Positions 22,822-39,017 of a DNA stretch of 64,000 nucleotides are shown here, in pieces. The position numbers and the translations under genes are program-made. This DNA comes from Sphingobacterium sp. UGAL515B_05. GTDB lineage: Bacteria > Bacteroidota > Bacteroidia > Sphingobacteriales > Sphingobacteriaceae. The DNA lies in contig NZ_CP109907.1 in NCBI RefSeq assembly GCF_033097525.1, forward strand, positions 186,001 through 250,000, written 5' to 3'. Below the pieces are notes generated by a model. That model ran no database searches. It had not been told where the DNA came from and was given only the letters and a program-made list of their open reading frames with translations. The stretch's first letter is position 1, and the number at the start of each line of letters is the position of its first letter.

Positions 22822-22859
22822 TATTAATACTTTATTAATGGACTATTAATTGAGTTAAT
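22822..22859 (+). promoter_or_regulatory. array of TATTAAT heptamers with 11-bp period upstream of the GH99-like operon
   Basis: TATTAAT occurs exactly at 22822-22828, 22833-22839 and 22844-22850, separated by 4-nt spacers (ACTT, GGAC). A related AGTTAAT follows at 22853-22859. The array ends 35 nt before the ATG at 22895. Heptamers with 4-nt spacers are the documented binding format of SARP-type winged-helix activators in Streptomyces. The same motif in the same orientation relative to its gene appears upstream of the SusC at 36154. Confidence 0.55.
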
Positions 22860-22894
22860 CGATATTTAGCAGAATAACTTAATTATAAATCGAT

Positions 22895-24139
22895 ATGATA
22901 GCTAAAACGCTCAAATTCCATCTTCTTGGCATCTACCTGCTTTTTTCGGTAGGCTTACTATTCGCACAAAAACAATACGATTCCTATCGCGGCCTCGTTA
23001 TGGCCGGCTACCAAGGCTGGTTCAATAGTCCTACTGATGGTGCAGACCGCGGATGGTACCATTACCGTGGTAAAAACGGATTCCAACCCGGTTCTACAAA
23101 TATCGATTTTTGGCCAGACGTCAGCACCTATCAAATAACCTATGACAGTCCTTTTATGACAAAAGATGGAAAGCCCGCTAAACTCTATAGCGCACATGAC
23201 TATTCTTCGGTAAACCTTCATTTTAAATGGATGCAACAATACGGAATCGATGGTGTATTTATGCAACGATTCGTGGGTGAGATTGCTAACCCCAGTGGTC
23301 GCAACCACTTCAACACAGTGTTGACTTCGGCTATTCGTTCAGCCAATGAATTTGATCGCGCCATCTGCGTCATGTACGACCTTAGCGGAATTAAAGATGG
23401 TGACGACAAAATCCTAATGGACGATGTAGCCGCCCTTGAAAAAGAATGGAACCTCAAAAAGCGTGATCGCGCCAAAACCTATCTTTTTCATCATGGCAAA
23501 CCACTGATTGCCGTTTGGGGTATCGGATTTAACGACGGTCGCAAATATAATCTCAAAACAGCCGAACGGATTGTCAATTACCTCAAACAAAACGGCTATA
23601 GCGTGCTTCTTGGCGTACCGACTTATTGGCGTGAATTGCGTCAGGATACCGAATCCGATCCATTTTTGCATGAACTCATCAAAAAATCAGATATCATTAT
23701 GCCTTGGTTTGTTGGTCGATATAATCAGGCCGGATTCGATCAGTTCAAATCCCTGATCAAAGATGATATGGACTGGTGCAAACAACATCAAATCGATTAT
23801 GCTCCACTTTGCTTCCCGGGATTCTCCTGGACGAACATGACCGGTAGCTCCCGTGCTTTTGTCCCACGTGATTCCGGAAATTTCCTGTGGAAACAATTAC
23901 AGTATAACCTTTCTATTGGTGCTCAAATGCTCTACATCGCCATGTTTGATGAAGTCGATGAAGGTACCGCCATATTCAAGACACTGCATCAAAAAGATGT
24001 CCCACTTAATGGAACAGGCTCATTTGTCGGTATTGAAGATAATCTTCCAAATGATCATTATCTTTGGTTAACCGGACAGGCAAGCAAATACCTAAAAACC
24101 AAAACCGCAGCCCCCGTAAAACAACCAAAAAGAAACTAA
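22895..24139 (+). CDS. GH71/GH99-like secreted glycoside hydrolase
   Basis: A 414-residue protein with a signal peptide (to about FAQ, residue 25). MAGYQGWFNSPTDGADRGWYHY at about 36-57 is characteristic of GH71/GH99-like proteins, which share an (alpha/beta)8 barrel. Other matching segments are HFKWMQQYGIDGVFMQRFVGE near residue 120 and IIMPWFVGRYNQ near 270. GH99 members are endo-alpha-1,2-mannosidases or mannanases and GH71 members are alpha-1,3-glucanases. Given the GH92 and GH95 genes nearby, an alpha-mannoside target is plausible but not shown. It is the first gene of a two-gene operon, with GH95 starting 3 nt after its stop. Confidence 0.82.
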   Translation: MIAKTLKFHLLGIYLLFSVGLLFAQKQYDSYRGLVMAGYQGWFNSPTDGADRGWYHYRGKNGFQPGSTNIDFWPDVSTYQITYDSPFMTKDGKPAKLYSAHDYSSVNLHFKWMQQYGIDGVFMQRFVGEIANPSGRNHFNTVLTSAIRSANEFDRAICVMYDLSGIKDGDDKILMDDVAALEKEWNLKKRDRAKTYLFHHGKPLIAVWGIGFNDGRKYNLKTAERIVNYLKQNGYSVLLGVPTYWRELRQDTESDPFLHELIKKSDIIMPWFVGRYNQAGFDQFKSLIKDDMDWCKQHQIDYAPLCFPGFSWTNMTGSSRAFVPRDSGNFLWKQLQYNLSIGAQMLYIAMFDEVDEGTAIFKTLHQKDVPLNGTGSFVGIEDNLPNDHYLWLTGQASKYLKTKTAAPVKQPKRN

Positions 24140-24142
24140 AAG

Positions 24143-26629
24143 ATGAAAATAAAAACGTTCCTATACTGCGCACTGCTACTGATGGGCAACACTACAATTA
24201 AGGCACAGCAGTCCACTAAAATAATAGATGCCCCAGCTAGTCAGCGGCAACATAAGATCACGCAATTCTGGACAGACCGCACACAGATTCAATCGGCTGC
24301 AAGTCTCTCCGCAGGCCCTTTAACGTTATCCTATGCACGTCCCGCAGGAGTTTGGGAGGAAGCTCTACCGCTCGGTAACGGTCAGCTCGGTGCCATGGTT
24401 TTTGGTGGTGTCGCCGATGAACGCGTCCAACTGAACGAAAGTACACTTTGGGCCGGTCATCCGCAGGATCCCAATAATCCCAAGGGGAAAATGTATCTGC
24501 CCCGGATACAACAACTTCTTTTTGAAGGTAAAAATAAAGAAGCAATCGACCTTGCAGACACAACGTTGATGGGCTTACCCAAAAACATCAAACCCTATCA
24601 GTCGCTTGGCGAACTATGGTTTGATATGCCCCATCTTAAAGCTGAACAGTATATGCGCTCGCTTGATCTTGAGCGTGCATTGCAACAAACAAGCTACGTG
24701 TATAATGGTGTCAAGTTCTTTCGCGAGTCATTCATTTCAGCTCCTGCCAACGCGATGGTCATGCATTATACAGCAAACAAGAAACAGGCACTCGATTTAA
24801 ACTTCACCTGGAAAAGAACCCAGGATTTCAGTTGCACCGCTGATCCGACAGATCCTACGCAATTGCTACTTCAGGGGCAGATTGGCCAATCTGCTCATGC
24901 CCATGAGCGCGGAACAAAGTTTGCCGCAATTGCAAAAGTAATCCTTAAAGGCGGTAAACTTATCAATGCAGACGGCCGCATAGCGATTACCGGAGCAGAT
25001 GAGATTACCATCATCGTCACCGCTGCTACTGATTATCCCGGATTGAAGCATATCGCCTATCCACAAACCCCGGTGGATATTGATCCACTTGCAAGCTGCC
25101 GCAAGGTAATCAGTAGCCTGAACAAACAGCATTATCAACAGTTAAAACAAGCTCATATAGAAGATTATCAACAGTATTTTAATCGGGTCAAGTTGAATCT
25201 TCCAGATCCAGAACAAGATAAACTCGCAAAACTACCCACTGATTCACTCATTCGGCTGACAAAAGAATTGCAAAAGGTACCTAATACTTTAGTCAACAAA
25301 TTCTTTCAGTTTGGTCGTTACCTTTTAATCAGCAGTTCACGTCCAGGACATATGCCGGCAAATTTGCAGGGCTTATGGGCTTGGCAGATGGATCCACCTT
25401 GGAATGCTGATTTTCATACCAATATTAATTTGCAAATGAACTATTGGCCCGCTGAGGTAACCAATCTTTCTGAATTGCATAAGCCCCTATTTGACCTCAC
25501 AAAGGCATTAATCCCTTTTGGTGAGCGTACCGCAAGCAAGCTTTATGGAGCCAAAGGCTGGGTGGTACATCATCTCACCGATGCCTGGGGCTACACAGCT
25601 CCAGCCGATGGGGTACAGGGCATTTGGCCAATGGGATCGGCCTGGATGGCGCAGCACCCCTGGGAACATTATAACTATACTGGCGACCGAGAATTTTTAA
25701 AAGTCCAGGCTTATCCTATTATGAAAGGAGCGGCTGAATTTATTTTGGATTTTATGGTCAAAATCCCCCAAGGTAAATCATTTGCCGGTTATTGGACCAC
25801 CAACCCTTCGCATTCCCCTGAGAATAGTTTTATCCTACCATCGGGTGAAGTTTCCAGTTTTACCTACGGTGCCACCATGGATACACAGATTATCCGCGAC
25901 CTCCTGCAAAATTGTGTTGAAGCTACAAAGCTCTTAGATTGCGATCCTGATTTCAGACAACGCTGTCAAGCTGCCTTAACCAAACTTATTCCAACACAAA
26001 TCAGCAAAGAAACAGGTCGCATTATGGAATGGATCGAAGATTATAAAGAGACTGAGGTAAATCACAGGCATACGTCACATTTATTTGGTTTGCATCCGAG
26101 CAACCAGATTTCAATCGTTAATACGCCCGAACTAGCCGAAGCTGCAAAAAAGACGCTATTAAGTCGGGGCGATCATGGCACAGGTTGGAGTCTGGCCTGG
26201 AAAATCAATATGTGGAATAGATTGCATGACGGAGAACATGCCTACCGCTTATTGTATAACCTGATCAGTGATAAGACACTGCCCAATCTGTTCGATAATC
26301 ACCCACCCTTCCAGATTGACGGGAACTTTGGCGCAACCGCAGCGATTGCCGAAATGCTGCTGCAAAGTCAGGTCAGGGACAAAAACAACAATTACCTCAT
26401 CGAGCTGCTACCCGCTTTAAGCCACAACATGGATCAGGGAAGCGTAACCGGACTTAAAGCAAGAGGAAATCGTACGGTGAATATACAGTGGGAAAACGGT
26501 AAGCTTAAGAAAGCTGAAATCCTCCCCAGCAGTAATGGTCCGGTCTGTATCAGCTATGCAGGTAAACAGATCGAACGGAATGGAACAAAAGGTACAGCAG
26601 TCTTGATTACCCCCGATATGTTTCAATAA
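24143..26629 (+). CDS. GH95-family alpha-L-fucosidase/alpha-L-galactosidase-like enzyme
   Basis: This 828-residue secreted enzyme (signal to about KAQ, residue 22) begins its N-terminal domain with RPAGVWEEALPLGNGQLGAMVFG and VQLNESTLWAGHPQDPNNP. The (alpha/alpha)6 barrel carries NINLQMNYWPAEVTN (about 427), PSHSPENSF with the probable acid Glu (about 558), HRHTSHLFGLHPS and DGNFGATAAIAEMLL (Asp about 726), all matching GH95. Known members remove alpha-1,2-linked L-fucose, or L-galactose in plant glycans, with inversion. It ends before a strong hairpin terminator and is translationally close-coupled to the GH99-like gene. Which terminal sugar it prefers cannot be decided here. Confidence 0.94.
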   Translation: MKIKTFLYCALLLMGNTTIKAQQSTKIIDAPASQRQHKITQFWTDRTQIQSAASLSAGPLTLSYARPAGVWEEALPLGNGQLGAMVFGGVADERVQLNESTLWAGHPQDPNNPKGKMYLPRIQQLLFEGKNKEAIDLADTTLMGLPKNIKPYQSLGELWFDMPHLKAEQYMRSLDLERALQQTSYVYNGVKFFRESFISAPANAMVMHYTANKKQALDLNFTWKRTQDFSCTADPTDPTQLLLQGQIGQSAHAHERGTKFAAIAKVILKGGKLINADGRIAITGADEITIIVTAATDYPGLKHIAYPQTPVDIDPLASCRKVISSLNKQHYQQLKQAHIEDYQQYFNRVKLNLPDPEQDKLAKLPTDSLIRLTKELQKVPNTLVNKFFQFGRYLLISSSRPGHMPANLQGLWAWQMDPPWNADFHTNINLQMNYWPAEVTNLSELHKPLFDLTKALIPFGERTASKLYGAKGWVVHHLTDAWGYTAPADGVQGIWPMGSAWMAQHPWEHYNYTGDREFLKVQAYPIMKGAAEFILDFMVKIPQGKSFAGYWTTNPSHSPENSFILPSGEVSSFTYGATMDTQIIRDLLQNCVEATKLLDCDPDFRQRCQAALTKLIPTQISKETGRIMEWIEDYKETEVNHRHTSHLFGLHPSNQISIVNTPELAEAAKKTLLSRGDHGTGWSLAWKINMWNRLHDGEHAYRLLYNLISDKTLPNLFDNHPPFQIDGNFGATAAIAEMLLQSQVRDKNNNYLIELLPALSHNMDQGSVTGLKARGNRTVNIQWENGKLKKAEILPSSNGPVCISYAGKQIERNGTKGTAVLITPDMFQ

Positions 26630-26739
26630 GGGAGTGTTCATCCAAATTTGAGCTGCTTACCATAATTTTGGTTGTTCAGTTTAAAGCAAGGTGAACATCT
26701 TATCGCAAATAGCTAATGGAAAACAGCTATCTATAAACT

Positions 26740-26774
26740 AAAGCGCTGTTGATCGACGATCAACAGCGCTTTTT
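26740..26774. terminator. bidirectional intrinsic terminator
   Basis: A perfect 16-bp palindromic stem (left arm from 26740, right arm to 26772, one central base) is followed by a T-run on the plus strand and by A/T-rich sequence on the other. It sits between the convergent GH95 (+) and GH92 (-) genes and should stop transcription from both sides. Confidence 0.88.
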
Positions 26775-26819
26775 AATTTTTTTACTTTCTGGCATACACA
26801 TGCTGGTAAGCAGGCTTTG

Positions 26820-29084
26820 TTAGTTCCCCCAATTTCGATTTGCGCTATCCCCCATCACAAATTCCAATGTACCACCTTTCAGCACATCGGCATGGGTCAA
26901 CTGTGGAACGTTCAGCGGCTGCCCATTTAATTTCGCCGATTGAATGTATTTGTTTTTTGCAGATGCATTCTTGCCGATAATGACAAAAGACTTGCCATTA
27001 GGAAGCTGTATGCTCACTTTCTGAAAAAATGGAGATCCGATGCTGTAGGAAGTCAGCCCTGGTGTTACGGGATAGAAGCCCATTTGGGAAAAGACCACAA
27101 AAGCAGACATCCCGCCACCGTCTTCATCGCCAGGTACCCCCATTAGATCGTTTCGAAACCACTCACCGATCAGTTTATGGATCCGTTTCTGTGTCATCCA
27201 AGGTTGTCCGGCATAATTATAGAGATAAGGAATATGCAAAGCCGGCTCATTCGCCATGGAAAATTGTCCAACATTACCTGTATGATCGGGAAGCTGCGCA
27301 TAAAAATCAAATTTCGACCGCCCCAAAGGCTGCTGAAACATCTCATCGAGGTACTTGACAAACAATTCATTTCCCCCCATCAATTTGATCAGATCCGGAA
27401 TATTGTGCTGTACATCCCAGCGATAGATCCAGGCATTGTTTTCACCATAATACTCGCGTGCTCCCTGTCCGCCAGAAAACACATAATCAAAAGGCATGAT
27501 AAAATTTCCCTTGTCATCTTTGGGATGGAAAAATTTGGTCTGTTCGTTGAAAAGATTTCTATAATTGAAAGATTGCTTCATAAAGAGATCATAATCAGCC
27601 TGAATACCCAATTCTTGAGCAAGCTGTGCCAAACACCATAAGTCATAAGAAGTGCCCAAGGTTACAGCGACAGGTTGTCTCCGTTCAAAACCGTTTACTT
27701 CTGGTATCGTTTCTTTTTCACCTGGGTACAATGCTGGAATATAGCCTTTCTCCTTAAAAAATTCGTCTAATTTCCCCGCGGCTTTACCCGACCAAGGAGC
27801 CAGCGTCTTTTCTGTAATCGCACCTTTTGCTGCCAGATAGGCTTTCTTGATATCAAAATTACGCACGCCTTTGCGGTATGCATCCAACAAAGTTGCTACA
27901 CCATGGTTGGAATTCATCCTTCGACTATCACCGGTAATCTCAGGGAAAGTAGGCAGCCAAGGCTGCTCCATTTGTTCAGACATCCGGACAAAAGAATTGA
28001 GGATCAAGGATTCTGTGCCAGGCTCCAACAATACCCGTAATGGATGATGTGCACGGTAGGAGTCCCAGATCCAGTCATCGGTAAAAAAAGGTTTGCCCTC
28101 GTCCTGATGTACCTTACCATCGAACGCACTATAATAACGGCCATCCTCAGAAATATTGACTGGGCGTTCATAGGTGCGGTATAAGGAGGTATAAAACACA
28201 TGTTTATTAGACTCATTGTCGCCTTCCACAGCTATTTTACCTAAAGCGTCGTTCCATATTTTACGCCCTTTTTCAGCGAGCTTCTTTTGATCAAAGTCGC
28301 TGATTTCACGCTTTAAATTGGCTTTTGCCTGTGCGACATCGATAAATGAAACGCCATATTTCATGCGCAGGCTAGTCCCTGCCTGATTAAACTCCAATAC
28401 CATACAGGAATTCTTACCAACAGCTTCTGTTGCATTTTCCAGTTGTTGCCCCTGCAGTCGCTTTACCGCAACAGGCTTGGATTCGGGAATAGCATAAATA
28501 TACACGTGCGTACCATTACCAATATCCTGTGTACCCGAAAGTCCCTGTCCGTCCCATTGAAGTTTCCCTTCCTGTGAGTTGAACTGAAGGTATTTTGTCG
28601 AAGTTGTCGGAAACGTAAAGGTATACATCCCCGACTGATGCGACAGCGCATAGTCTACCTGAATATTCTCTTGATCCAATAGCACCGAATAGGCATACGG
28701 ATGTATTTCCTCCTGATCGTAACTATACAGTTGTACCGGTTTCAAACTGCCTGGCAATTTCACCATGGGACTAAGATTGAAAGCCGATTTTCCACGATGA
28801 CTGGTAACGATAAGCGGCAGACCAAACAGACGGTCTGACGTATAGTCTCCCCGCTCAGGATAAACGCGCAAAAGGCTGTTTGGCAAGTGAACCGTTGGAT
28901 AGGTTGGTACCAATAAATGGCTGATGTTTCCCATATAAGGATTGACATAATCAACATAATCTTTCGTCATTTTAGCTTGGGAAAAACCTTTTAGCATACT
29001 GACCGAAAGAAGAGAACAGCAACATAGTGTGCGTAACAATGTATTGGTTTTACGTTTGATATTCTTCGTTAGCATTTTAAACAA
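26820..29084 (-). CDS. GH92-family alpha-mannosidase
   Basis: A 754-residue secreted protein with a signal peptide in the first 36 residues. GH92 blocks are YVDYVNPYMGNISHLLVPTYP, FFTDDWIWDSYRAHHPL, GENNAWIYRWDVQHN (Glu near 548, the presumed acid), EPALHIPYLYNYAGQPW and GDEDGGGMSAFVVFSQMGFYP (near 651, the calcium/base region with two Asp). The family consists of calcium-dependent exo-acting inverting alpha-mannosidases used on N-glycans and yeast mannan. It is the last gene of the SusC operon, separated from GH43 by a stem-loop. Linkage preference is not determined. Confidence 0.94.
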   Translation of the reverse strand: MFKMLTKNIKRKTNTLLRTLCCCSLLSVSMLKGFSQAKMTKDYVDYVNPYMGNISHLLVPTYPTVHLPNSLLRVYPERGDYTSDRLFGLPLIVTSHRGKSAFNLSPMVKLPGSLKPVQLYSYDQEEIHPYAYSVLLDQENIQVDYALSHQSGMYTFTFPTTSTKYLQFNSQEGKLQWDGQGLSGTQDIGNGTHVYIYAIPESKPVAVKRLQGQQLENATEAVGKNSCMVLEFNQAGTSLRMKYGVSFIDVAQAKANLKREISDFDQKKLAEKGRKIWNDALGKIAVEGDNESNKHVFYTSLYRTYERPVNISEDGRYYSAFDGKVHQDEGKPFFTDDWIWDSYRAHHPLRVLLEPGTESLILNSFVRMSEQMEQPWLPTFPEITGDSRRMNSNHGVATLLDAYRKGVRNFDIKKAYLAAKGAITEKTLAPWSGKAAGKLDEFFKEKGYIPALYPGEKETIPEVNGFERRQPVAVTLGTSYDLWCLAQLAQELGIQADYDLFMKQSFNYRNLFNEQTKFFHPKDDKGNFIMPFDYVFSGGQGAREYYGENNAWIYRWDVQHNIPDLIKLMGGNELFVKYLDEMFQQPLGRSKFDFYAQLPDHTGNVGQFSMANEPALHIPYLYNYAGQPWMTQKRIHKLIGEWFRNDLMGVPGDEDGGGMSAFVVFSQMGFYPVTPGLTSYSIGSPFFQKVSIQLPNGKSFVIIGKNASAKNKYIQSAKLNGQPLNVPQLTHADVLKGGTLEFVMGDSANRNWGN

Positions 29085-29099
29085 TTAAGTGTTCGATGG

Positions 29100-29131
29100 T
29101 TTAAGGGCGAAACAGTTGTTCCGCCCTTAAA
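29100..29131 (-). other. intercistronic stem-loop between GH43 and GH92 genes
   Basis: Perfect 10-bp arms (TTTAAGGGCG / CGCCCTTAAA) enclose 12 nt that can partly pair further. In the coding (minus) direction no T-run follows, so it looks more like an mRNA stability or processing element than a full terminator. On the plus strand it is followed by eight T residues. Confidence 0.5.
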
Positions 29132-29172
29132 GTTAATTTTTTTTGGCAACATATCGTCTTCGTGCCCATCGA

Positions 29173-30153
29173 TTATTTGGGACCTGTCAATAAGCCCGTC
29201 TGCTTTACCTTCTTGATACTGCCGTCCTTATTGTACTCCAAGCGGTCTACGCAGATGGAACGAAGCCAATCGTTGAATTCGCCATTTTTTTGTGACAATT
29301 CACTGTTATGGTAAAAAGCGTACCATTTACCTTTAAACTTGACAATGGAGCCATGGTTTGTATAGCTATTCGTCGGATCCATATAGATGCCCATTGATTT
29401 CCATGGTCCCATTGGGTTATCACTTACCGCATAGCGCATGCGGTTATCTCCTTTTACTCCATCTTTCCAGTTCTCATCGTGGTTGTCAGAATAGGACAGA
29501 TAATATTTTCCATTATACTTGTGTACCCATGAAGCTTCGTGGAAATCTTCCAAACCTTCCATCTTTTGCAATTCACCATCAATCTCCATCATATTGTCTT
29601 TGAGCTTACCTGCTTTACAGACGCCACCGCCCCCCTGATAAAAATAGGCCTGTCCATTATCATCGATAAAGATATGCGGATCAATAAGTGCTTCGGCACC
29701 TTTTACATAACCCTGTACCACAAAATCTTTTGCTGGTGATTTACTCGTAGCTACACCAATTTTCCAGGTCTTATTCCACTCCGTACCACTTGGGTGTGGA
29801 AAATAAAAATAATAAGTACCATTTTTATAGACACAATCCGGAGCCCACATAAATCCACCTTCTTTTCTGCCCCAAGGGACTTGTGAGGCGCGCAATATTT
29901 CGCCATGATCGGTCCATGTTTTCATATCCGCCGTCGAAAACACATGATATTGATCCATCAGATCGCAACCTTGAGGCGGAGCAATATCATGTGAAGCGTA
30001 CACATACAGGCGGCCATCGGCCCATACCCGTGCCGAAGGGTCTGCGGTATACATATGTTTGATAAATGGGTTATCTTGCGCCTGCAAGTGTGTCGCAAAA
30101 AATAATGTCATGCCCAATAGGCATCTGGAACCTGCTTTAATAAATTGTTTCAT
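29173..30153 (-). CDS. GH43-family glycoside hydrolase (arabinofuranosidase/xylosidase-like)
   Basis: This 326-residue single-domain secreted enzyme has a signal peptide to about LQAQ (residue 26). The five-bladed propeller carries MYTADPSARVWADGRLYVYASHD with the catalytic base Asp38, a middle block ALIDPHIFIDDNGQAYFYQGG with the pKa-modulating Asp, and FHEASWVHKYNGKYYLSYS with the acid Glu near residue 205. GH43 enzymes usually act on alpha-L-arabinofuranosides, beta-xylosides or beta-galactofuranosides. The last would suit a glycan with furanosyl caps but is a guess. It lies after the DUF3823 gene with a small stem-loop between. Confidence 0.92.
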   Translation of the reverse strand: MKQFIKAGSRCLLGMTLFFATHLQAQDNPFIKHMYTADPSARVWADGRLYVYASHDIAPPQGCDLMDQYHVFSTADMKTWTDHGEILRASQVPWGRKEGGFMWAPDCVYKNGTYYFYFPHPSGTEWNKTWKIGVATSKSPAKDFVVQGYVKGAEALIDPHIFIDDNGQAYFYQGGGGVCKAGKLKDNMMEIDGELQKMEGLEDFHEASWVHKYNGKYYLSYSDNHDENWKDGVKGDNRMRYAVSDNPMGPWKSMGIYMDPTNSYTNHGSIVKFKGKWYAFYHNSELSQKNGEFNDWLRSICVDRLEYNKDGSIKKVKQTGLLTGPK

Positions 30154-30183
30154 CCGAATAATTATTTAGTATTGAGTAGTAGT

Positions 30184-30203
30184 AGCGGGCACCAAGTCCC
30201 GCT
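30184..30203 (-). other. intercistronic stem-loop between DUF3823 and GH43 genes
   Basis: AGCGGG and CCCGCT form a 6-bp GC-rich stem with an 8-nt loop in the 69-bp gap. No T-run follows in the coding direction. It may modulate readthrough from susCD into the enzyme genes. Confidence 0.35.
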
Positions 30204-30222
30204 TATTGTTTAGATTCTTTCC

Positions 30223-30954
30223 TTAAGGTACTTTAATAACCTCCACTTCCGAATAATTGAATTTTTCGTAGGTGTCGCGCACCTTTGCGCCCATACGTAC
30301 ATAATAGGTATACCCTGATTTCAATGGAATATCCTTGATCGTGTAGGTTTCCTTCCCTTCTCCGGTCTGCATATTGCCGATATTTTCCCAGTTTTGATTG
30401 ATCAATGCGCGATATTCATCCTTATAATACGCATCAATACGGTTACCAGCCCCACAGTATGGTGTCAGACTCAGGAATGGGCGAACCTCAATCACTTGCG
30501 GCAATCCACCCGTAATAGGTGCGGCAAGCGTACAGGAAATTTCCAGTTTATTTTCCGCTTTTAAGGTCCACTTCACATTTTTGATCTGTAGGTAGGGCGT
30601 CACCTCAAAGTTTTGCTCTGCATTAGCCCCCAGTTGGTAACCTTCGATTTTCTGCGCTGGCCAAAATGCACCACCATAGGGCTGGAGGGTATAGGTCGCC
30701 TGAAAGAGTTTTGTATGATTATACGATCCGTCCTGCTTGACGGCAATATCCTGCGGTGCGGGATTGTCGCTCCAACTGGTTTCTAGCAGACGGATGCTAA
30801 ATTCGCCCTGTCCGGTCAGGAAGGGTTTATTCGTTACCTTGTCTATGACCTGCCCTTTCATAGTCGCATTCGGACCATCGTAATTATCTGTTTTCGAACA
30901 GGCATTTAAAAATAACAAGCCTGTCAATGCTGTAAATAAATATATCGTTCTCAT
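30223..30954 (-). CDS. DUF3823 lipoprotein (SusD-partner surface protein)
   Basis: This 243-residue protein has a lipobox (GLLFLNAC). DNYDGPNATMKGQVIDKVTNKPF opens a beta-sandwich typical of DUF3823, with QDGSYNHTKLFQATYTLQPYGGAFWP in the middle and a second fibronectin-like half (about 130-243) ending SGYTYYVRMGAKV. Proteins of this family are commonly encoded directly after a SusD and are thought to be accessory surface glycan-binding lipoproteins. Here the ATG lies 10 nt after the SusD stop, which fits that role. No catalytic residues are apparent. Confidence 0.88.
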   Translation of the reverse strand: MRTIYLFTALTGLLFLNACSKTDNYDGPNATMKGQVIDKVTNKPFLTGQGEFSIRLLETSWSDNPAPQDIAVKQDGSYNHTKLFQATYTLQPYGGAFWPAQKIEGYQLGANAEQNFEVTPYLQIKNVKWTLKAENKLEISCTLAAPITGGLPQVIEVRPFLSLTPYCGAGNRIDAYYKDEYRALINQNWENIGNMQTGEGKETYTIKDIPLKSGYTYYVRMGAKVRDTYEKFNYSEVEVIKVP

Positions 30955-30964
30955 TTCCGCTCAA

Positions 30965-32938
30965 TTAGTAAATAGGGTTCTGTGGATATAGATTAGGGTT
31001 TTTGTTCAGTTCTCCACCCGGAATAGGTTCATAATACCATTTCTTTTCAAAGTTGAACGTCTTATTCCAAGGCTCTTTTTCGCGAATAAAAATAAAGGAG
31101 TTGATCCGTTCACCGCCCGGAGTATATTTCAGTTCATCCAATACAAGGTAAGGCATCAGCGAATTGGGCACAAAGTTATTGAGCTCCACATCTGCAATGC
31201 GCCATCTCCGCATATCCCACCAATGGTGATTTTCAAAGCAAAGTTCACGTTCGCGCTCCTCGCGTATAAACTGCAGATTTCCATCCAGGGGATAACCATA
31301 TTTACCGGAGAGGTTTGCCGAAGCAGCTGTATAGAGATAAGGCTTGGCACCAGCACGATTACGGATCTGCGCGATGTATTGGAATGCTTCCTGTTTAAGC
31401 GTTTCATCATTTTTGATCAGGCCGAGTTCATAAGCAGCTTCAGCCTTATTCAAAAGTATCTCCGCGAGCCTAAAGACCTTCCAGGGTTGTGTACTGTTAT
31501 ACAACTTCACATCCTTGGTAGACATTTTATAGTTAATGTATTTACGGATGTAAAATCCAGTTCGGGTGTTGTTGGCATGTCCATCTTTCCACATGCCATG
31601 CTCCCCTGTTATATTGATCTTCGTACCATTGTAGTCAAACAGGCTATTTTTGGGGCCAGCCAGGATTCGATTTGACTCGCTATTTATCGCCGCAGTACCC
31701 GCGCCCATCTGTGCATCAGCAGCCTTACCGGGAAAGGTTTTATAGAGTCCACGCTGAATATCGAAACTCCGTCTTTCGGCGCCTTCACGTAATTCCATCC
31801 CTGAGAAGTAAAATGTGGCCCGCTGACGAGGTTCCAAATCGGCATACAGCTGTTTACGGTCCGTGTAACGTACTGGTTTCCCTCCGGCATCAGTGATTGG
31901 AAGTTCACCGAATAACTCCACGACATTCAATACGGGATATGCCGCAGACTCATTGTCACTCGAAAAGGTCGGATTGGGTAAGTGGGTAGCGTCATAGCTG
32001 TGTTTGAGACGGTTGTTGTGCGGTGCGGTCAGACTATACTCCTTGATCAGAATATCCTCAGGACTGTCTAAGTCCAAAAACAAATTTACGTAGTTGAGTT
32101 CCTTATCCTGTGCATTTTTATTATACAGACTGTACGGTCCTGCCAGCACGGTTGTTGCAGCATCATAAGCCTGTTTGAAGAACCATTCTGCTTCTTCCTT
32201 TTTGATACCGACCAACTGCATGTCTGTTGCATCACCAGAGAGATTGCTGTACGAACTATATTTAGCAATACTACCGGCATACAACATGGCGCGGGAAAGT
32301 AGAGCTGCTGCCACATATTTGTTGGCGCGGCCGCGTTCGCTGCTTCCAGACATCATTGAAATAGCCACCTGCAAGTCTTCATTGATAAAATGATAAACCT
32401 CAGATTCTTTATTTCTGCTGACTAAGAGCTGTTCTTTATCAGCTGTTGGATCCTGCACGTCCTTTATAATAGGTACCCCACCGTAGCGTTTAACCAAAGC
32501 AAAATAATAGAAAGCACGCAGGAAATGGGCTTCCCCAAAGATCTGGTTGTACCCCTGCTCGGTGTAATTGGCTTTGTATTTAGGCAGGCCTGCAATCAGG
32601 GTATTGACATTCCGGATGCGATCATATGGCCAGTAACCAAAACCCTGTGCTCCAGCTACCCCCCAAAATTGTCCGGTCATCTCGCCGCTCATGGCCGCAA
32701 GTGTTTCCGAATTTTGCCAATAATTGTCCCATCTAAATCCTCTTTCAGGATGATATACAAAGTCTTCTATGGGCAGATAGCTGTACATTCCAGCGACATA
32801 TTTACGTGCTCCAGCCTCATTTCCAAAAAGCGCATCTTCACCCAATACCCCTAGTGGATCCAGATCCATTTTTTTACAGGATTGCATGCCCGAGCACAGA
32901 AAAAGGCCAATGATTGCTATAGCGATTGATTTTTTCAT
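30965..32938 (-). CDS. SusD-family lipoprotein (long, 657 residues)
   Basis: A SusD/RagB protein with lipobox CSGMQSC, opening MDLDPLGVLGEDALF, helical core EAHFLRAFYYFALVKRYGGVP (about 134-154), and the C-terminal ERERELCFENHHWWDMRRWRIADVEL followed by PGGELNKNPNLYPQNPIY. It is about 100 residues longer than most SusD proteins, the extra length lying in the middle surface loops. It sits 18 nt after SusC and 10 nt before the DUF3823 gene, as is usual for this sub-group. It is expected to bind the complex glycan that the GH92, GH43 and associated enzymes degrade. Confidence 0.94.
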   Translation of the reverse strand: MKKSIAIAIIGLFLCSGMQSCKKMDLDPLGVLGEDALFGNEAGARKYVAGMYSYLPIEDFVYHPERGFRWDNYWQNSETLAAMSGEMTGQFWGVAGAQGFGYWPYDRIRNVNTLIAGLPKYKANYTEQGYNQIFGEAHFLRAFYYFALVKRYGGVPIIKDVQDPTADKEQLLVSRNKESEVYHFINEDLQVAISMMSGSSERGRANKYVAAALLSRAMLYAGSIAKYSSYSNLSGDATDMQLVGIKKEEAEWFFKQAYDAATTVLAGPYSLYNKNAQDKELNYVNLFLDLDSPEDILIKEYSLTAPHNNRLKHSYDATHLPNPTFSSDNESAAYPVLNVVELFGELPITDAGGKPVRYTDRKQLYADLEPRQRATFYFSGMELREGAERRSFDIQRGLYKTFPGKAADAQMGAGTAAINSESNRILAGPKNSLFDYNGTKINITGEHGMWKDGHANNTRTGFYIRKYINYKMSTKDVKLYNSTQPWKVFRLAEILLNKAEAAYELGLIKNDETLKQEAFQYIAQIRNRAGAKPYLYTAASANLSGKYGYPLDGNLQFIREERERELCFENHHWWDMRRWRIADVELNNFVPNSLMPYLVLDELKYTPGGERINSFIFIREKEPWNKTFNFEKKWYYEPIPGGELNKNPNLYPQNPIY

Positions 32939-32956
32939 GTTTTGTTCGTTTTGAGA

Positions 32957-35900
32957 TTAAAATTTAATGGATGCTCCAATGTTGTAGGTTTTATTGATGG
33001 GATATTTGTACACATCAATATCACCCGATGAAGAACCTCCGGCAGATCCTGGGTGCTCGGGATCGGTATATTTGAGACCTGTCCATGTCAACAGGTTATA
33101 AGCACTCGCATAGATCCTGAGATTCTTTATTTTTAGTGTCTTCAACCATTGTTGCGGGAGAGAATACCCCAGTTCTAAGGTTTTCAGACGCAGATAGGAG
33201 GCATTTTGAACTGCCCGGGTTCCTTCGGCCATGGCAGAGCCCGTAGAAGGATAATATCCAGCAAGCCATTGGGTACTTGGGTTAAATAGATCGGCACCGG
33301 CATCAACTGGTCTCCAGCGATCCAAAAACTGCGTCAAAGCACCGCCGTCAAACTGCAATGGCCCTGCCAGTACCTCACTATACTGTACATACACTTTTGC
33401 TGCACCCTGAAAATTCATCGTCAGATCCAGACCGCGCCACGATCCTCCTAAGGTAAAACCATAGTTGATCAAAGGCATATTATACGTTGCAATAGGATGA
33501 TTGTCGGCATCGTTGATCACTCCATCGCCATTCCAGTCCTGATAGTAATAATCACCAGGCAATGTACCGCTACTTACCAATGTTGGGTGGTTATAAATCT
33601 GCTCATACGATCCAAACTGTCCGGCATATTCCTTGCCCCACCAGATATCCTTATTACGATTAGAGTAGCGGTTACGCCAGTTGTCGTACGAATTACCTGC
33701 TTTTGATTCTACGCGGTTTACAAATTGACTTTTCGTAGAAGAGACCTGCGCATTAATATAATAATTGAAATCATTGATCTTATTGCGATGTGTCAAAGAG
33801 AGCTCATAACCGAAGGTGCGATCGCTTTCCAGATTTTCCTGCGGTAGGTTGGCACCAACAGTACCGGGGATCAAGTCAAGGCTTGTCGCTAGAAGGCCTG
33901 AGCGATTACGGTTAAAATAATCAAAAGTCAAGCCCAGCTTGCCGTTCCATAGATCCATATCCAAACCCACGTCAGCAGTTTTGGACGTATACCAGGTGAG
34001 ATTAGGGTTGGGAATTGCTGTCGGCAGGGCCCCATTCACGAGGTTTCCACCAAAGATCCATCCCGTTTCATTGGGTTCCAGTGCATAACCAACGATGGTT
34101 GAAGGGTAATTACCTGCCGAACGGTCATCCCCAAGCTTACCATAGGATGCCCTTATTTTTAAGTTATTGATAAAACTGTAGTTGTTTTTAATAAACCCTT
34201 CTTCGCTGATACGCCAGCCCACCGAGGCCGCCGGGAAAAATCCCCAGCGTGATTCTTTTGGAAATTTAGAGGAGCCATCATAACGAAAACTAAATTCGGC
34301 GATGTATTTACCCAAATAATCGTAATTGAACTTACCGACCAAACCTCGCGCTGTACGTTCGCCAATACCTTCCATATTTGCCAATTGGTTCTTGTCCTCA
34401 CCAGCAAATAGATATTCCGAATTGACCATGATCTCCCGTTGTGCATAGAAGCTATCCCATTTGTTATATTCTTCGACGAAAAGCAACAAACCGGAGACCT
34501 GGTGTTTTTCGGCAAAACGACGGTTATAATTCAACGAGAACTGCATCAGGGAATGCGTATCCGGATAGGAACTCCGCCTCACGGTCGTAGGGGCATTTTT
34601 CTCATGTGCATTATACTTTTCAGGGGTTATAATCTGGCCGTTACCATCATAGACAGGTGGTGTATAGCTATATAAAAAATAGGACTTTTTGAAATCCGTA
34701 TTGTCACTGTACTTGAAGTCATAATTATAGGTTGCCTTCGCATTTAATCCTTCCACAAAGGGCACTTTATAGTCTAAAGCGATAATACCGTTGAATTGCT
34801 TACGCAAAAATTTACGATAGCCCGTCTGTTTGGAATCCGTTACCACGACCGGATTTTCGTTATCGATCATCTCGAAATTCGGATAAAGGGGATTGTCGTT
34901 GACATAGATCGGAACAATAGGTCTTTGTCTCCAGGCCTGTTTGTAGACGGCCCAGATATCCGTACGTGGTTGGTTGGTCTCATCGGCATACCCGCCCACA
35001 TCCAAAGACGCTTTCAGACGATCTGTGATCTGCGCATCGATGTTGGAGCGAAAATTCCAGCGATTATAGTTGAGGCTCTTGCTTTTGTAAGCGCCCATCT
35101 GATCCATATGGCCCAGGTTGAAGAAATAATTAACTTTCTTGCCGCCACCGTTGATGGAAAGATTGTGCTGGTATTGCGGCGATACTTTGTCGAATGCTGC
35201 ATCCACATAATTGGATGTCTTTTTTGTGCCGTTCTGATACGCTTCAAAATCTGCCGGCCCAAAAATATGAGGCATCTTCGCCGGATAATTGCTATTAAAA
35301 TGGCGACCTATCTGTTCGTTTTTAAGCTGCATATAGGCAAGGGCATCCACCGTATTGGGAACATAAAGAAACTTTTGCCAGGCACGATTATAGGAATAGT
35401 TTATTTCAAAGTTTCCATCTTCGTTACTTCCCCGGCGTGTGGTCACCAAAAGAACACCATTCGCCGAGCGCACACCGTAAACAGCTGCTGAAGCATCCTT
35501 TAATACGGATACACTTTCGATTTCATTGGCATCCATGCGTGACAGATAATCTTTATCACGGGGGATCCCGTCGACCACAATCAGGGGCTCACCCATTCCG
35601 CGGATGTCGATATTTGATTCAAACGATCCCGGTTGGCTCGACTGTTGGCTGATACGCACACCGGGCATCTTACCGGCTAACATATTGACCACATTTTCAT
35701 TTTTTGTTACCGTGATTTCTTTATTGTTCACCGATGATATCGCCCCTGTTAACGAAGCCTTTTTCTGCGTGCCATACCCCACAACCACGACCTCTTCCAA
35801 GCTTGTATTATCTTCGTTGAGCAACACATCCATGAGGCGTTGTTGCCCAACGATCATTTCAGTCTTGCGGTAACCGACGTAAGTGATCACGAGTTTGTCT

Positions 35901-36154
35901 CCCGGCGATGCGTTAATTTTGAAGCGTCCCTGACCATCAGACGATGTTGTCTGCCCGGTGCGGAGGTCTGTAATGGAAGCCCCAGCGATCGGCTTATCAT
36001 TTAAAGTCTGCACCTTACCTTCGATCTGCTGTTGCTGCGCGATGGTTGCCATTGGAGACAATAGCAGCAGCGAGGACAATGCCCACTGCCAAGGGTAACT
36101 ACGGAGCTTGTTCCACGGCAGTGGCCTTTCATTAAAAATGAAGTTTGTTTTCAT
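32957..36154 (-). CDS. SusC-family TonB-dependent transporter (no STN)
   Basis: A 1065-residue outer-membrane importer. A long N-terminal region with the signal helix (to about ATIAQ, residue 39) is followed directly by the carboxypeptidase-regulatory-like domain (IEGKVQTLNDKPIAGASI), then EEVVVVGYGTQKKASLTGAIS, the plug with DIRGMGEPLIVVDGIP, and the barrel ending in GASIKF. There is no STN domain, so it cannot signal to a FecR protein in the usual way. The only regulator next to it is the SARP-type membrane protein at 36414. Its 259-bp upstream region contains heptamer direct repeats and palindromes. SusD follows after 18 nt. Confidence 0.95.
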   Translation of the reverse strand: MKTNFIFNERPLPWNKLRSYPWQWALSSLLLLSPMATIAQQQQIEGKVQTLNDKPIAGASITDLRTGQTTSSDGQGRFKINASPGDKLVITYVGYRKTEMIVGQQRLMDVLLNEDNTSLEEVVVVGYGTQKKASLTGAISSVNNKEITVTKNENVVNMLAGKMPGVRISQQSSQPGSFESNIDIRGMGEPLIVVDGIPRDKDYLSRMDANEIESVSVLKDASAAVYGVRSANGVLLVTTRRGSNEDGNFEINYSYNRAWQKFLYVPNTVDALAYMQLKNEQIGRHFNSNYPAKMPHIFGPADFEAYQNGTKKTSNYVDAAFDKVSPQYQHNLSINGGGKKVNYFFNLGHMDQMGAYKSKSLNYNRWNFRSNIDAQITDRLKASLDVGGYADETNQPRTDIWAVYKQAWRQRPIVPIYVNDNPLYPNFEMIDNENPVVVTDSKQTGYRKFLRKQFNGIIALDYKVPFVEGLNAKATYNYDFKYSDNTDFKKSYFLYSYTPPVYDGNGQIITPEKYNAHEKNAPTTVRRSSYPDTHSLMQFSLNYNRRFAEKHQVSGLLLFVEEYNKWDSFYAQREIMVNSEYLFAGEDKNQLANMEGIGERTARGLVGKFNYDYLGKYIAEFSFRYDGSSKFPKESRWGFFPAASVGWRISEEGFIKNNYSFINNLKIRASYGKLGDDRSAGNYPSTIVGYALEPNETGWIFGGNLVNGALPTAIPNPNLTWYTSKTADVGLDMDLWNGKLGLTFDYFNRNRSGLLATSLDLIPGTVGANLPQENLESDRTFGYELSLTHRNKINDFNYYINAQVSSTKSQFVNRVESKAGNSYDNWRNRYSNRNKDIWWGKEYAGQFGSYEQIYNHPTLVSSGTLPGDYYYQDWNGDGVINDADNHPIATYNMPLINYGFTLGGSWRGLDLTMNFQGAAKVYVQYSEVLAGPLQFDGGALTQFLDRWRPVDAGADLFNPSTQWLAGYYPSTGSAMAEGTRAVQNASYLRLKTLELGYSLPQQWLKTLKIKNLRIYASAYNLLTWTGLKYTDPEHPGSAGGSSSGDIDVYKYPINKTYNIGASIKF

Positions 36155-36207
36155 GTATTGTTTTAAATTGGTTATTGAATTATGTATTAGGTTTATGTAT
36201 TTAGGGA

Positions 36208-36253
36208 GGACCTGTTTGCTACAAACAGTCCATTACCGCTATTCCCTAGGGAA
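36208..36253. promoter_or_regulatory. two palindromic elements in the susC leader region
   Basis: An interrupted inverted repeat at 36208-36231 pairs GGAC/GTCC and TGTTTG/CAAACA around a 3-nt centre with one bulged base. TTCCCTAGGGAA at 36242-36253 is a perfect 12-bp palindrome. Both lie 54-100 nt upstream of the SusC start and downstream of the heptamer array. They may be operators or leader RNA structures. Confidence 0.4.
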
Positions 36254-36334
36254 GAGCTGAAGATAATTTTTCGCTTTCATTTGATTGGTTATTAAGTATG
36301 AAAACGAATATATTGGCGAGGGGTATAATAGAAC

Positions 36335-36397
36335 ATTAACAGAAGATTAACAGGTATTCAAAAACACTATTAACAACTGTATATCAACACATTAAAA
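36335..36397 (-). promoter_or_regulatory. array of TGTTAAT heptamers upstream of susC
   Basis: On the minus (coding) strand TGTTAAT occurs at 36375-36369, 36352-36346 and 36341-36335, with TTTTAAT at 36397-36391. Offsets are 22, 23 and 11 bp, so all copies face nearly the same side of the helix, and the two proximal copies are separated by 4 nt. A TATTATA sequence lies a few nt downstream of the last copy and could serve as a -10/-7 element. The array sits between the SARP-type regulator gene and its presumed target susC. Confidence 0.55.
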
Positions 36398-36413: not shown

Positions 36414-39017
36414 TTAATCTAGACAGTCTTTAAAACTTTTGGGGTAAGCTTCACCATATAAACGAGCGTAGATCTGACAGAAATTCTCATAGCACTGTAA
36501 GGCCAGGCTGTGATAGCCCAGCTGTAACAAGGAACGACATTTATGAACCATTGCCTCCTCATTGATTTCATCAAAATAGAATATCTTATTGCAGATCTCA
36601 ATAATCAGTTCAGCATTATCCTGCACATTCAGATTTTCAATAAAATTGCCCAACGTTGTGAGCACCAGAATAGACATTTCACTTTTAAAATTATCGAGCC
36701 ACTCATAGTCCACTTCGAAAAGGAAGCCGCCTTTGTCAATTATATCGAGTAATTCCCTAATTTCAGTTTCTGTAAAATATTTTTTATTGGATACCATCCT
36801 GCTGAAGCGGAGGTAATCGATATACACGGTATCCATTGGTTCTATGCACCAGTAACCACTTTTTTTGGTCACCCTAAAATCACCCAATTGCTCGAGTAAA
36901 CTATTGAGCTTGGCGATGTTCACTGACCGATTATTACGCGCACTGGACTGGCTCTTATCGGACCAAAATAGCTCAGTCAGCTTCTCTGAGCTAATTCCCC
37001 GCTCCCATCGTACAGTATAGAGAATAAAAATCAGCAGCATTTCCTTAAGCAGTGGCGAAAACTTCTTTGTGATTTCTTTGCCAGCAAGATCCACAATCTG
37101 AAGGTCGCCACCGAAAAGGTAGATTCCGGCGCCATGTCGGGTTTCAAATCCCTTGGCCACTTTCTTGGGTTGCGAAAGATCAACCAATTGCCCACTTTTA
37201 TCTTGTTCCCTCTCCTTCAAAGGTGCTGCCTGTAGGTGCGGCTCTTCTATTTTATCGGTTTTTATGACCGGAATAGCCTGTTTTTTTTGCTTGCTTCTTT
37301 TTCGATACCACCAGATCAAGAGCGATAATCCCATTACAGCGAGGACATAAAGGCTGTATTTAAGCAGCATAGGCTTAGCCAAAGGCATTATACCCTGTTC
37401 AGACGGTAAGGGAGGAGCCAGTAAAGTATAAATCGTTGCCTTAGTCAGATCGGTCTTGTCATCATAAAACAAGGTGACTGCAACAAAGGACTTAGATTTC
37501 GGCGCATAATAGAGATCGGCAAAAGAACGGATGTCATGAAAATCGAAGGGTATACTGCTCCCCAAAAACTGGTATTGTGTTCCTTTGAGGCTACTTGCCA
37601 CCAGTTGTAAATGTGTTTTGAATTTATTGTTCGGGAAAATCAATCCATAAAACAGTCCACTACTATCTTCAACGACCAGACTATTGGCCCATACCATATC
37701 GGCGAATGCAGATGAAAATTCGTGAACTTTTAACGACTTGCGGTTTTTGAAATCAAGCTTAAGAAAATCATTTGAAATGCGGGGATTCAACATTTGATCT
37801 CCTGTGGAACTACCATAACCTCCGGCCAGATATACCCCATCTCTTCCCTGCCCCATTCCCGCAAGATAATGCGGAAAAATTTCATCACCTGTAAAAGGAA
37901 TGCTATCCCAAGATTGTGTAGGCAGATGATAACGCAATACGCCCGCTTTGTATTTAAAATGGCCATAGCCCCCGATCATATAGATACTCGTGTCGGACGA
38001 ATTAAAATATTTGTTGAACAGCCAATAGTTTGTGCCTACCGCAGGAAAATCAAATTGTTTATTCCATGTTCGACTGGTGGAATCATAAGCAGCAACAATT
38101 TTTTGGTCGATGGAGATATTCAGGACGTTCTTTTTGATCGGATCAAAAAGCGATTGACTGCCATTGACGAGCAAAAGCTTGCCATCGGCATATTCCTGCG
38201 AACGTACGTCACTACCACCAATTTTATTGATCATCAAACGCTTATTTCCAACAAAAAACAGTGTTTCTTGATTTTTGTCAAAGGCCACGCTAGCTTGTCC
38301 TTCCAGTGTAAAAGAAGCCTGTGTTTTCCATTCACTACGTTGCCGCTTGATCCAGATCGGATTACCGATTTCCGCTGTGCTCTTTTTTTGCGCATCTAAA
38401 CTCTTGGTCCCGGAAGACTCATCCAATGGCCAATAGTATTTAAGTTTGCTATTATCCGCAATTCGAATATCCTTTAAGCGCATGGGAGGAACATCCATTG
38501 TCTGGAAGTTTTTCATCATATTTGCACCAAAAACAAGCTTAAACTGAGGCGCAAACTGTTTGTTGAGCCGATAGGAATACCGGGCCTTTCCGACCTCAAA
38601 GTAAAGCTCCTTTTTATCCATATCGAGCTCGAGGCACATTGGCGTCCAGTTATAATACAACTGTAAGGCTGTGATATTGAAAGATACCGGGGTAAAGTCC
38701 TCCCCAACTACCAATTTAAAATGTTTGTCCTGATCAAGCCGCCGATCGTATATCAGATCGATATTGACACCATCATCCGTAATCAGTCGAAAGATATAAC
38801 CAAAATAATCCTGTTGGAGTGGCAAAAAGGAAAGATCGAATGAAACAGACAGTTTATGCTGAAAAGAAATTGATTCGTTGGTACCGATCTGCAGGCTAGT
38901 CCGCTTATCCGCCTCCATGTTGTGGCTGGCAAATTCTAACCCATATTGCGCCGATCCAATCTGACAGATCAGTACAAACCAGAAAACCAGAAAAAGATGT
39001 CTTGATTTTTTCTTCAC
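36414..39017 (-). CDS. membrane-spanning SARP/BTAD-type regulator with LamG- and Kelch-like periplasmic sensor
   Basis: This 867-residue protein has a signal peptide (1-23), then a LamG/concanavalin-like region (about 25-200). A beta-propeller-like region with Kelch-style phrases follows (about 240-540: IYMIGGYGHFKYKAGVLRYH, GVYLAGGYGSSTGD), then one membrane helix (about 551-571, LLKYSLYVLAVMGLSLLIWW) and basic residues. The cytoplasmic part has an OmpR-like winged helix (about 625-725: KFSPLLKEMLLIFILYT, LTELFW, ARNNRSVNIAKLNSLLEQLG) and a helical BTAD/TPR-like tail (about 735-867). That order matches Streptomyces antibiotic regulatory proteins (SARP), here tethered to the membrane. It should sense a glycan outside and activate transcription inside. 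It lies upstream of the STN-less susC operon and divergent from GH110. The Kelch part can lead to a misleading galactose-oxidase label. Confidence 0.85.
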   Translation of the reverse strand: MKKKSRHLFLVFWFVLICQIGSAQYGLEFASHNMEADKRTSLQIGTNESISFQHKLSVSFDLSFLPLQQDYFGYIFRLITDDGVNIDLIYDRRLDQDKHFKLVVGEDFTPVSFNITALQLYYNWTPMCLELDMDKKELYFEVGKARYSYRLNKQFAPQFKLVFGANMMKNFQTMDVPPMRLKDIRIADNSKLKYYWPLDESSGTKSLDAQKKSTAEIGNPIWIKRQRSEWKTQASFTLEGQASVAFDKNQETLFFVGNKRLMINKIGGSDVRSQEYADGKLLLVNGSQSLFDPIKKNVLNISIDQKIVAAYDSTSRTWNKQFDFPAVGTNYWLFNKYFNSSDTSIYMIGGYGHFKYKAGVLRYHLPTQSWDSIPFTGDEIFPHYLAGMGQGRDGVYLAGGYGSSTGDQMLNPRISNDFLKLDFKNRKSLKVHEFSSAFADMVWANSLVVEDSSGLFYGLIFPNNKFKTHLQLVASSLKGTQYQFLGSSIPFDFHDIRSFADLYYAPKSKSFVAVTLFYDDKTDLTKATIYTLLAPPLPSEQGIMPLAKPMLLKYSLYVLAVMGLSLLIWWYRKRSKQKKQAIPVIKTDKIEEPHLQAAPLKEREQDKSGQLVDLSQPKKVAKGFETRHGAGIYLFGGDLQIVDLAGKEITKKFSPLLKEMLLIFILYTVRWERGISSEKLTELFWSDKSQSSARNNRSVNIAKLNSLLEQLGDFRVTKKSGYWCIEPMDTVYIDYLRFSRMVSNKKYFTETEIRELLDIIDKGGFLFEVDYEWLDNFKSEMSILVLTTLGNFIENLNVQDNAELIIEICNKIFYFDEINEEAMVHKCRSLLQLGYHSLALQCYENFCQIYARLYGEAYPKSFKDCLD

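Follow-up and report, generated by a model that had tools for sequence, protein, structure and literature searches.

The control of polysaccharide utilization loci (PULs) is usually credited to SusR-like proteins, hybrid two-component systems (HTCS) and sigma/anti-sigma pairs, and few operators are known. The known classes of PUL regulator in Bacteroidota are HTCS, SusR-like proteins and ECF sigma factors, and housekeeping promoters of this phylum have a -7 box of the form TAnnTTTG (PMC7366714). At promoters bound by AfsR, a Streptomyces antibiotic regulatory protein (SARP), the repeat pair occupies -40 to -30 and -29 to -19 and overlaps the -35 element, with region 4 of the sigma factor resting on the SARP dimer (PMC10936776). 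No paper on SARP-type regulators of PULs was found among the open-access papers searched.

The locus compared here with these systems lies in a window of 64,000 nucleotides (the whole stretch of DNA that was analysed) from Sphingobacterium sp. UGAL515B_05. It has a susC/susD pair, glycoside hydrolases and an adjacent regulator, and is thus a PUL. The GH99 labels are tentative, as the Pfam match was below cut-off or there was no match. The genes are as follows.

19700-22453: HTCS, AraC-type, with a Peripla_BP_4 sugar-binding sensor, adjoining the GH99 operon on its upstream side
22895-24139, plus strand: GH99-like endo-glycosidase gene (Pfam GH99 below cut-off)
24143-26629, plus strand: GH95 gene, second in the GH99-GH95 operon
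26820-29084, minus strand: GH92 (alpha-mannosidase family) gene
29173-30153, minus strand: GH43 gene
30223-30954, minus strand: DUF3823 gene
30965-32938, minus strand: susD
32957-36154, minus strand: susC (TonB-dependent receptor), first gene of the PUL operon
36414-39017, minus strand: regulator, 867 aa (structure model)

Two arrays of heptamers precede the two operons, with TATTAAT at 22822-22828, 22833-22839 and 22844-22850 on the plus strand before GH99 and mainly TGTTAAT on the minus strand before susC.

22822-22850, plus strand: candidate operator array 1, three TATTAAT with an 11-bp period before the GH99-like/GH95 operon, conserved in orthologous loci although the DNA preceding it diverges
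36346-36352, minus strand: candidate operator array 2, repeat 1, TGTTAAT, conserved in orthologs
36335-36341, minus strand: candidate operator array 2, repeat 2, TGTTAAT, conserved in orthologs
36324-36330, minus strand: candidate operator array 2, repeat 3, TATTATA, over the -33 region, kept in orthologs
36369-36375, minus strand: distal, possibly accessory TGTTAAT copy, 23 bp upstream in the susC array (ortholog comparison)
36391-36397, minus strand: distal TTTTAAT copy, 22 bp beyond the copy at 36369 (ortholog comparison), possibly only A/T-rich flank

A sequence-only reading of this DNA had reported the heptamers on both strands, their offsets of 11, 23 and 22 bp before susC and a shared orientation, and all of these were recovered, each array pointing toward its own downstream gene. 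The susC copies it listed are correct, but it missed the third in-register repeat (TATTATA, 36330-36324, minus strand); with this repeat included, both arrays are triplets. The pair T[AG]TTAAT-N4-T[AG]TTAAT occurred three times in the window compared to a mean of 0.03 in shuffled sequence, with none of 100 shuffles reaching three, and pattern searches across the 6.36-Mb genome returned seven matches compared to none for a reversed control pattern. The lone heptamer T[AG]TTAAT was not enriched in the window (23 observed, 36 expected), so the signal is the periodic arrangement. When the triplet was scanned genome-wide, the only zero-mismatch sites of the source genome were the two arrays of the window, which shows rarity rather than discovery since the pattern was derived from these same arrays. 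For single promoters the shuffle p of the 11-bp triple was modest (0.003-0.1), and its strength comes from recurrence across clades. Apart from the third-best site described below, the remaining 2-mismatch matches were rejected as further targets; they mostly do not lie before PUL genes and several fall in a GTTAACCCCCT-type intergenic repeat. Such intergenic tandem repeats, with an 11-bp GTTAACCCCCT-type unit and flanking inverted copies, were also seen in relatives (L161:6637-6664, L165:8709-8736 and similar sites); they fit the loose array pattern yet are not promoter-positioned.

The motif was present at orthologous promoters. The regulator, the susC array and the GH99 array were all kept in seven genomes (the source genome, G108, G105, G022, G098, G018 and G074; 75-91% identity), with the first GH99 repeat shifted by one base in the trio G098, G018 and G074. 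In G022 the GH99 array is intact even though the sequence on its 5' side is unrelated to that in the window. Every ortholog of at least 75% identity has repeat 3 of the susC array in the form T[AG]TTATA. The distal copies (36369, 36391) were fully retained only in the closest relatives, the copy at 36369 being present in G108, G105 and G022 and lost in G098, G018 and G074. Invariant positions at susC were concentrated in the repeats, with 19/21 compared to 127/230 in the flanks in clade A (p = 0.001) and 15/21 compared to 66/231 in clade B (p = 0.00014).

The regulator is predicted from its structure model to consist of a signal-like helix (residues 2-22), a beta domain (27-239), a kelch-type propeller (approximately 240-540), a TM helix (549-577), a disordered linker (578-627) and a C-terminal SARP-fold domain (628-867). 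The periplasmic beta domain and propeller are presumably the glycan sensor.

36417-37154, minus strand: cytoplasmic SARP-fold domain (winged helix and BTAD-like helices), predicted DNA-binding (AlphaFold model, pLDDT 92.7)

The model has the order typical of SARPs, an OmpR-type winged helix followed by a BTAD helical domain. Compared with the PDB over 228 residues it gave Z 15.9 for AfsR and Z 14.5 for EmbR, the next unrelated chain scoring 8.1. Sequence comparisons gave less. The curated cut-offs of Trans_reg_C and BTAD (Pfam) and SARP (NCBIfam) were not reached (best E ~0.01), a sequence-profile search of the PDB gave no usable match, and among 29 family members weak matches were found to Trans_reg_C in 5, BTAD in 1 and BagI/FevR SARP in 9. 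A C-terminal profile search of the source genome found no second member of the family. In G030 a regulator ortholog (L041:9105-10803; G030:C1) is split into two frames and runs, from about residue 574, into the final 105 residues of susD; a deletion took out the promoter array and susC together with the SARP domain and most of susD.

Triples were also found beside more distant members of the regulator family. Beside regulators of ~50% identity (G067, G096, G075, G082), TRTTAAT-like triples stand at 5/5 linked susC genes; in G082 a duplicated susC has one too. A pair at 41% identity (G071, G035) has triples at two promoters each, those of susC and of an isomerase-like gene. In the 32-35% identity clade the triples before linked susC are of AATTAA type and in a 26% member of CATTAAC type, in both cases at 11 bp. 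In the divergent subfamily at 27% identity, no 11-bp triple was found at the nearby susC genes. Clades with TRTTAAT arrays have NNRSVNIAK as recognition helix, compared to NNLLVNMGK or a similar sequence in the clade with the AATTAA word; the array word changes where the recognition helix does. The extra array of the 41% clade precedes a xylose-isomerase-like TIM-barrel gene (L119:3515-4357, L039:3344-4186), which in G071 is followed by GH99. The 26%-identical regulator (L045; G027:C1) lies beside a different susC, the one with the CATTAAC-type triple. One extra perfect triple array (L271; G067:C23:472613) has, within 3 kb, no obvious PUL gene downstream.

TTAA cores at 11-bp spacing scored at least 11/12 at all 12 scored linked susC promoters compared to 3 of 24 other susC promoters, so the motif is not equally frequent elsewhere. 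These counts follow labels corrected on inspection; L119 and L120, automatically labelled 'other', were relabelled as linked, and the automatic run had included the L226 relic. The difference between linked and other susC (Fisher p = 5e-7, with 23 rather than 24 controls) is optimistic since clade members are related and not independent. The firmer fact, as read from the promoters, is the recurrence of the triple in five diverged clades. This family linkage, together with the orthologs, the SARP fold and the position of a -7-like box, supports the proposal of the sequence-only reading that the arrays are candidate operators of the SARP-type regulator and join both operons in a shared regulon.

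Generic A/T-rich sequence as the source of the arrays was ruled out by the susC controls (3/24). A related explanation, that the repeats are UP-like elements contacted by the alpha subunits of RNA polymerase with no specific regulator, is hardly credible. The repeats are indeed A/T-rich, in helical phase and just upstream of the promoter, but triples are rare at other susC promoters, the pair is rare genome-wide, and the word is specific and differs between regulator clades.

AraC-type domains also bind direct repeats, and the gene directly upstream of GH99 in the window encodes an AraC-type HTCS (19700-22453), which might therefore read the arrays. Its distribution makes this very improbable. 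Its ortholog is absent (E <= 1e-150) from G067, G096, G075 and G082, all four of which keep the susC array, so the HTCS cannot be the common reader, and as reader of the susC arrays it is ruled out. It is present in 47/94 genomes of the genus, mostly without this PUL, and its position is not fixed either, being ~8 kb from GH99 in G022 and on a different contig from the relic array in G090.

A third promoter, unlinked to the window, is probably included in the regulon of the SARP-type regulator. The third-best genome-wide site (5594894-5594921, minus strand) is followed after 143 bp by a second GH99-like gene (GH99b), the product of which is ~32% identical to the GH99-like protein of the window. 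Its repeats are invariant at 20/21 positions compared to 184/271 in the flanks (p = 0.004). Besides G105, the GH99b array was retained in G090, G005 and G017. A family profile search found no member of the regulator family in G090 and G005 and only a distant one in G017. The main caveat of assigning the arrays to the regulator is this persistence of the GH99b array in regulator-less genomes (G090, G005; L168:8463-9752, L169-L173), for which recent loss of the regulator is one explanation and a second factor as reader another.

In genomes that lost the PUL and its regulator, the GH99 operon is gone or reduced to a stub. Of the locus, G017 and G090 keep GH92, 57 residues of GH43 as a stub and a relic GH99 array, the block from the regulator to GH43 and the GH99-GH95 pair having been deleted, and in G027 a GH99 stub with its array remains. 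The relic GH99 promoter arrays in these three genomes (G017, G090, G027) are at L224, L226 and L261, the PUL and regulator having been lost. A second transcription factor, reading the TRTTAAT arrays alone or jointly with the SARP-type regulator, would fit the conserved GH99b array of G090 and G005 and the few perfect triples in other genomes without the regulator (G008, G034, G095). Against such a factor, the array word covaries with the recognition helix of the SARP-type regulator, the triple is carried by all linked susC promoters and rarely by others, and the relic arrays of G017 and G090 are sites left behind by PUL loss. We consider its involvement unlikely.

The position of the promoter box bears on how the regulator would act. 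In the window, the following predicted boxes were found.

22861-22868, plus strand: weak -7-like box GATATTTA, 15 bp after the TTA core of repeat 3 (4/6 match to TAnnTTTG)
36305-36312, minus strand: -7-like box TATATTCG, 16 bp after the TTA core of susC repeat 3 (sequence match)

The GH99 box GATATTTA is among the weakest of the promoter set, the susC box TATATTCG was retained in 7/7 clade-A genomes, and the GH99b promoter has a perfect box (TAACTTTG). The best TAnnTTTG-like match began 14-16 bp past the TTA core of the third repeat in 11/12 promoters, with ties resolved toward 15 (binomial p ~1.6e-10 compared to a uniform offset; combined shuffle p 2e-7). The exception was the 26% member, in which the box starts at 27, approximately one helical turn further. 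If the -7 box begins at -12, the repeats would start near -29, -40 and -51, a register that would match that of the AfsR repeats. Binding of the regulator as a repressor, released by a glycan signal, is quite unlikely. A regulator bound across the -33 region could just as well obstruct RNA polymerase, and the membrane anchor does not fix the sign of the effect. The predicted register, however, matches that of AfsR, an activator that compensates for a poor -35 element.

We therefore favour, with a probability of roughly 80%, a one-component trans-envelope SARP-fold activator that acts on three 11-bp heptamers and switches on the PUL, GH99-GH95 and probably the unlinked GH99-like gene. The arrays, their conservation, the regulator linkage, the phase of the box, the SARP fold and the exclusion of the HTCS for susC were computed here; we infer binding, activation rather than repression, the stoichiometry of protein to repeat and the glycan signal. 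The periplasmic beta domain and kelch-type propeller would sense a glycan and the signal would cross the envelope through the single TM helix of the protein. Cytoplasmic SARP-fold protomers would then lie side by side on the three 11-bp-spaced T[AG]TTAAT heptamers, the last of which, ending 9-11 bp upstream of the predicted -7 box, would cover the -33 region. The bound protomers may recruit RNA polymerase with the housekeeping sigma factor, as AfsR does, turning on susC-susD-DUF3823-GH43-GH92, GH99-GH95 and probably the unlinked GH99-like gene. From the GH92, GH99-like and GH95 content, our guess for the inducing glycan is mannose-rich N-glycans or fungal mannans.

More broadly, we lean toward a separate class of PUL switch in Sphingobacterium, perhaps also in other Bacteroidota, that combines a trans-envelope propeller sensor with a SARP fold, an AfsR-like adaptation to the unusual housekeeping sigma factor of the phylum, a triple 11-bp operator and a word that co-evolves with the recognition helix. 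Owing to this co-evolution, targets, including unlinked ones, would be readable directly from genomes. Here the sequences of several diverged clades give operator, regulator and promoter geometry together. If true, SARP-type activation would extend to a sigma factor whose promoters have a different -10 signal, and glycan regulons would have a predictable operator code that includes genes far from the PUL.

Compared to AfsR and the SARPs (Streptomyces, afs box; PMC10936776), the regulator shares the winged helix and BTAD fold over the whole domain (228 residues), and its promoters share direct repeats at 11 bp, of which the 3' copy is just upstream of the -10/-7 element. SARPs activate transcription by contacting RNA polymerase and region 4 of sigma. 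The direct repeats at their target promoters are spaced by 11 or 22 bp, and 11-bp triples were found at all scored linked susC. In SARPs the 3' repeat lies 8 bp upstream of a -10 element of a different type, compared to 9-11 bp from the end of the heptamer to the sequence-predicted TAnnTTTG-like box in 11/12 promoters. AfsR uses two repeats and the Sphingobacterium regulator three, with a TTAA-core word and a TAnnTTTG-type box. Unlike SARPs, cytoplasmic proteins in which the SARP domain is N-terminal, the regulator carries it C-terminally behind a TM helix and propeller. Its sensor is a periplasmic propeller rather than NOD/TPR, its predicted role is the control of glycan uptake rather than of antibiotics, and its identity to AfsR is ~14%. 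EmbR of Mycobacterium tuberculosis also shares the winged helix and BTAD fold (Z 14.5), but it is soluble with a C-terminal FHA domain and has neither a membrane anchor nor a propeller. HTCS, SusR-like proteins and ECF sigma factors likewise couple sensing at the envelope to PUL promoters beside the regulator gene; the Sphingobacterium regulator, in contrast, has no kinase, receiver, AraC domain or sigma factor and is one polypeptide with a SARP-fold output. ToxR/CadC-type regulators are also membrane-anchored one-component proteins, with a sensor in the periplasm, a single TM helix and an OmpR-type winged helix in the cytoplasm; the domain order of the Sphingobacterium regulator is the opposite, with its winged helix C-terminal, and it adds BTAD-like helices and a kelch-type sensor. 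Because it falls short of the sequence models and has a different domain order and sensor, we do not class the regulator as a member of the SARPs. It resembles them in fold and promoter geometry but not in domain order, sensor, DNA word or phylum.
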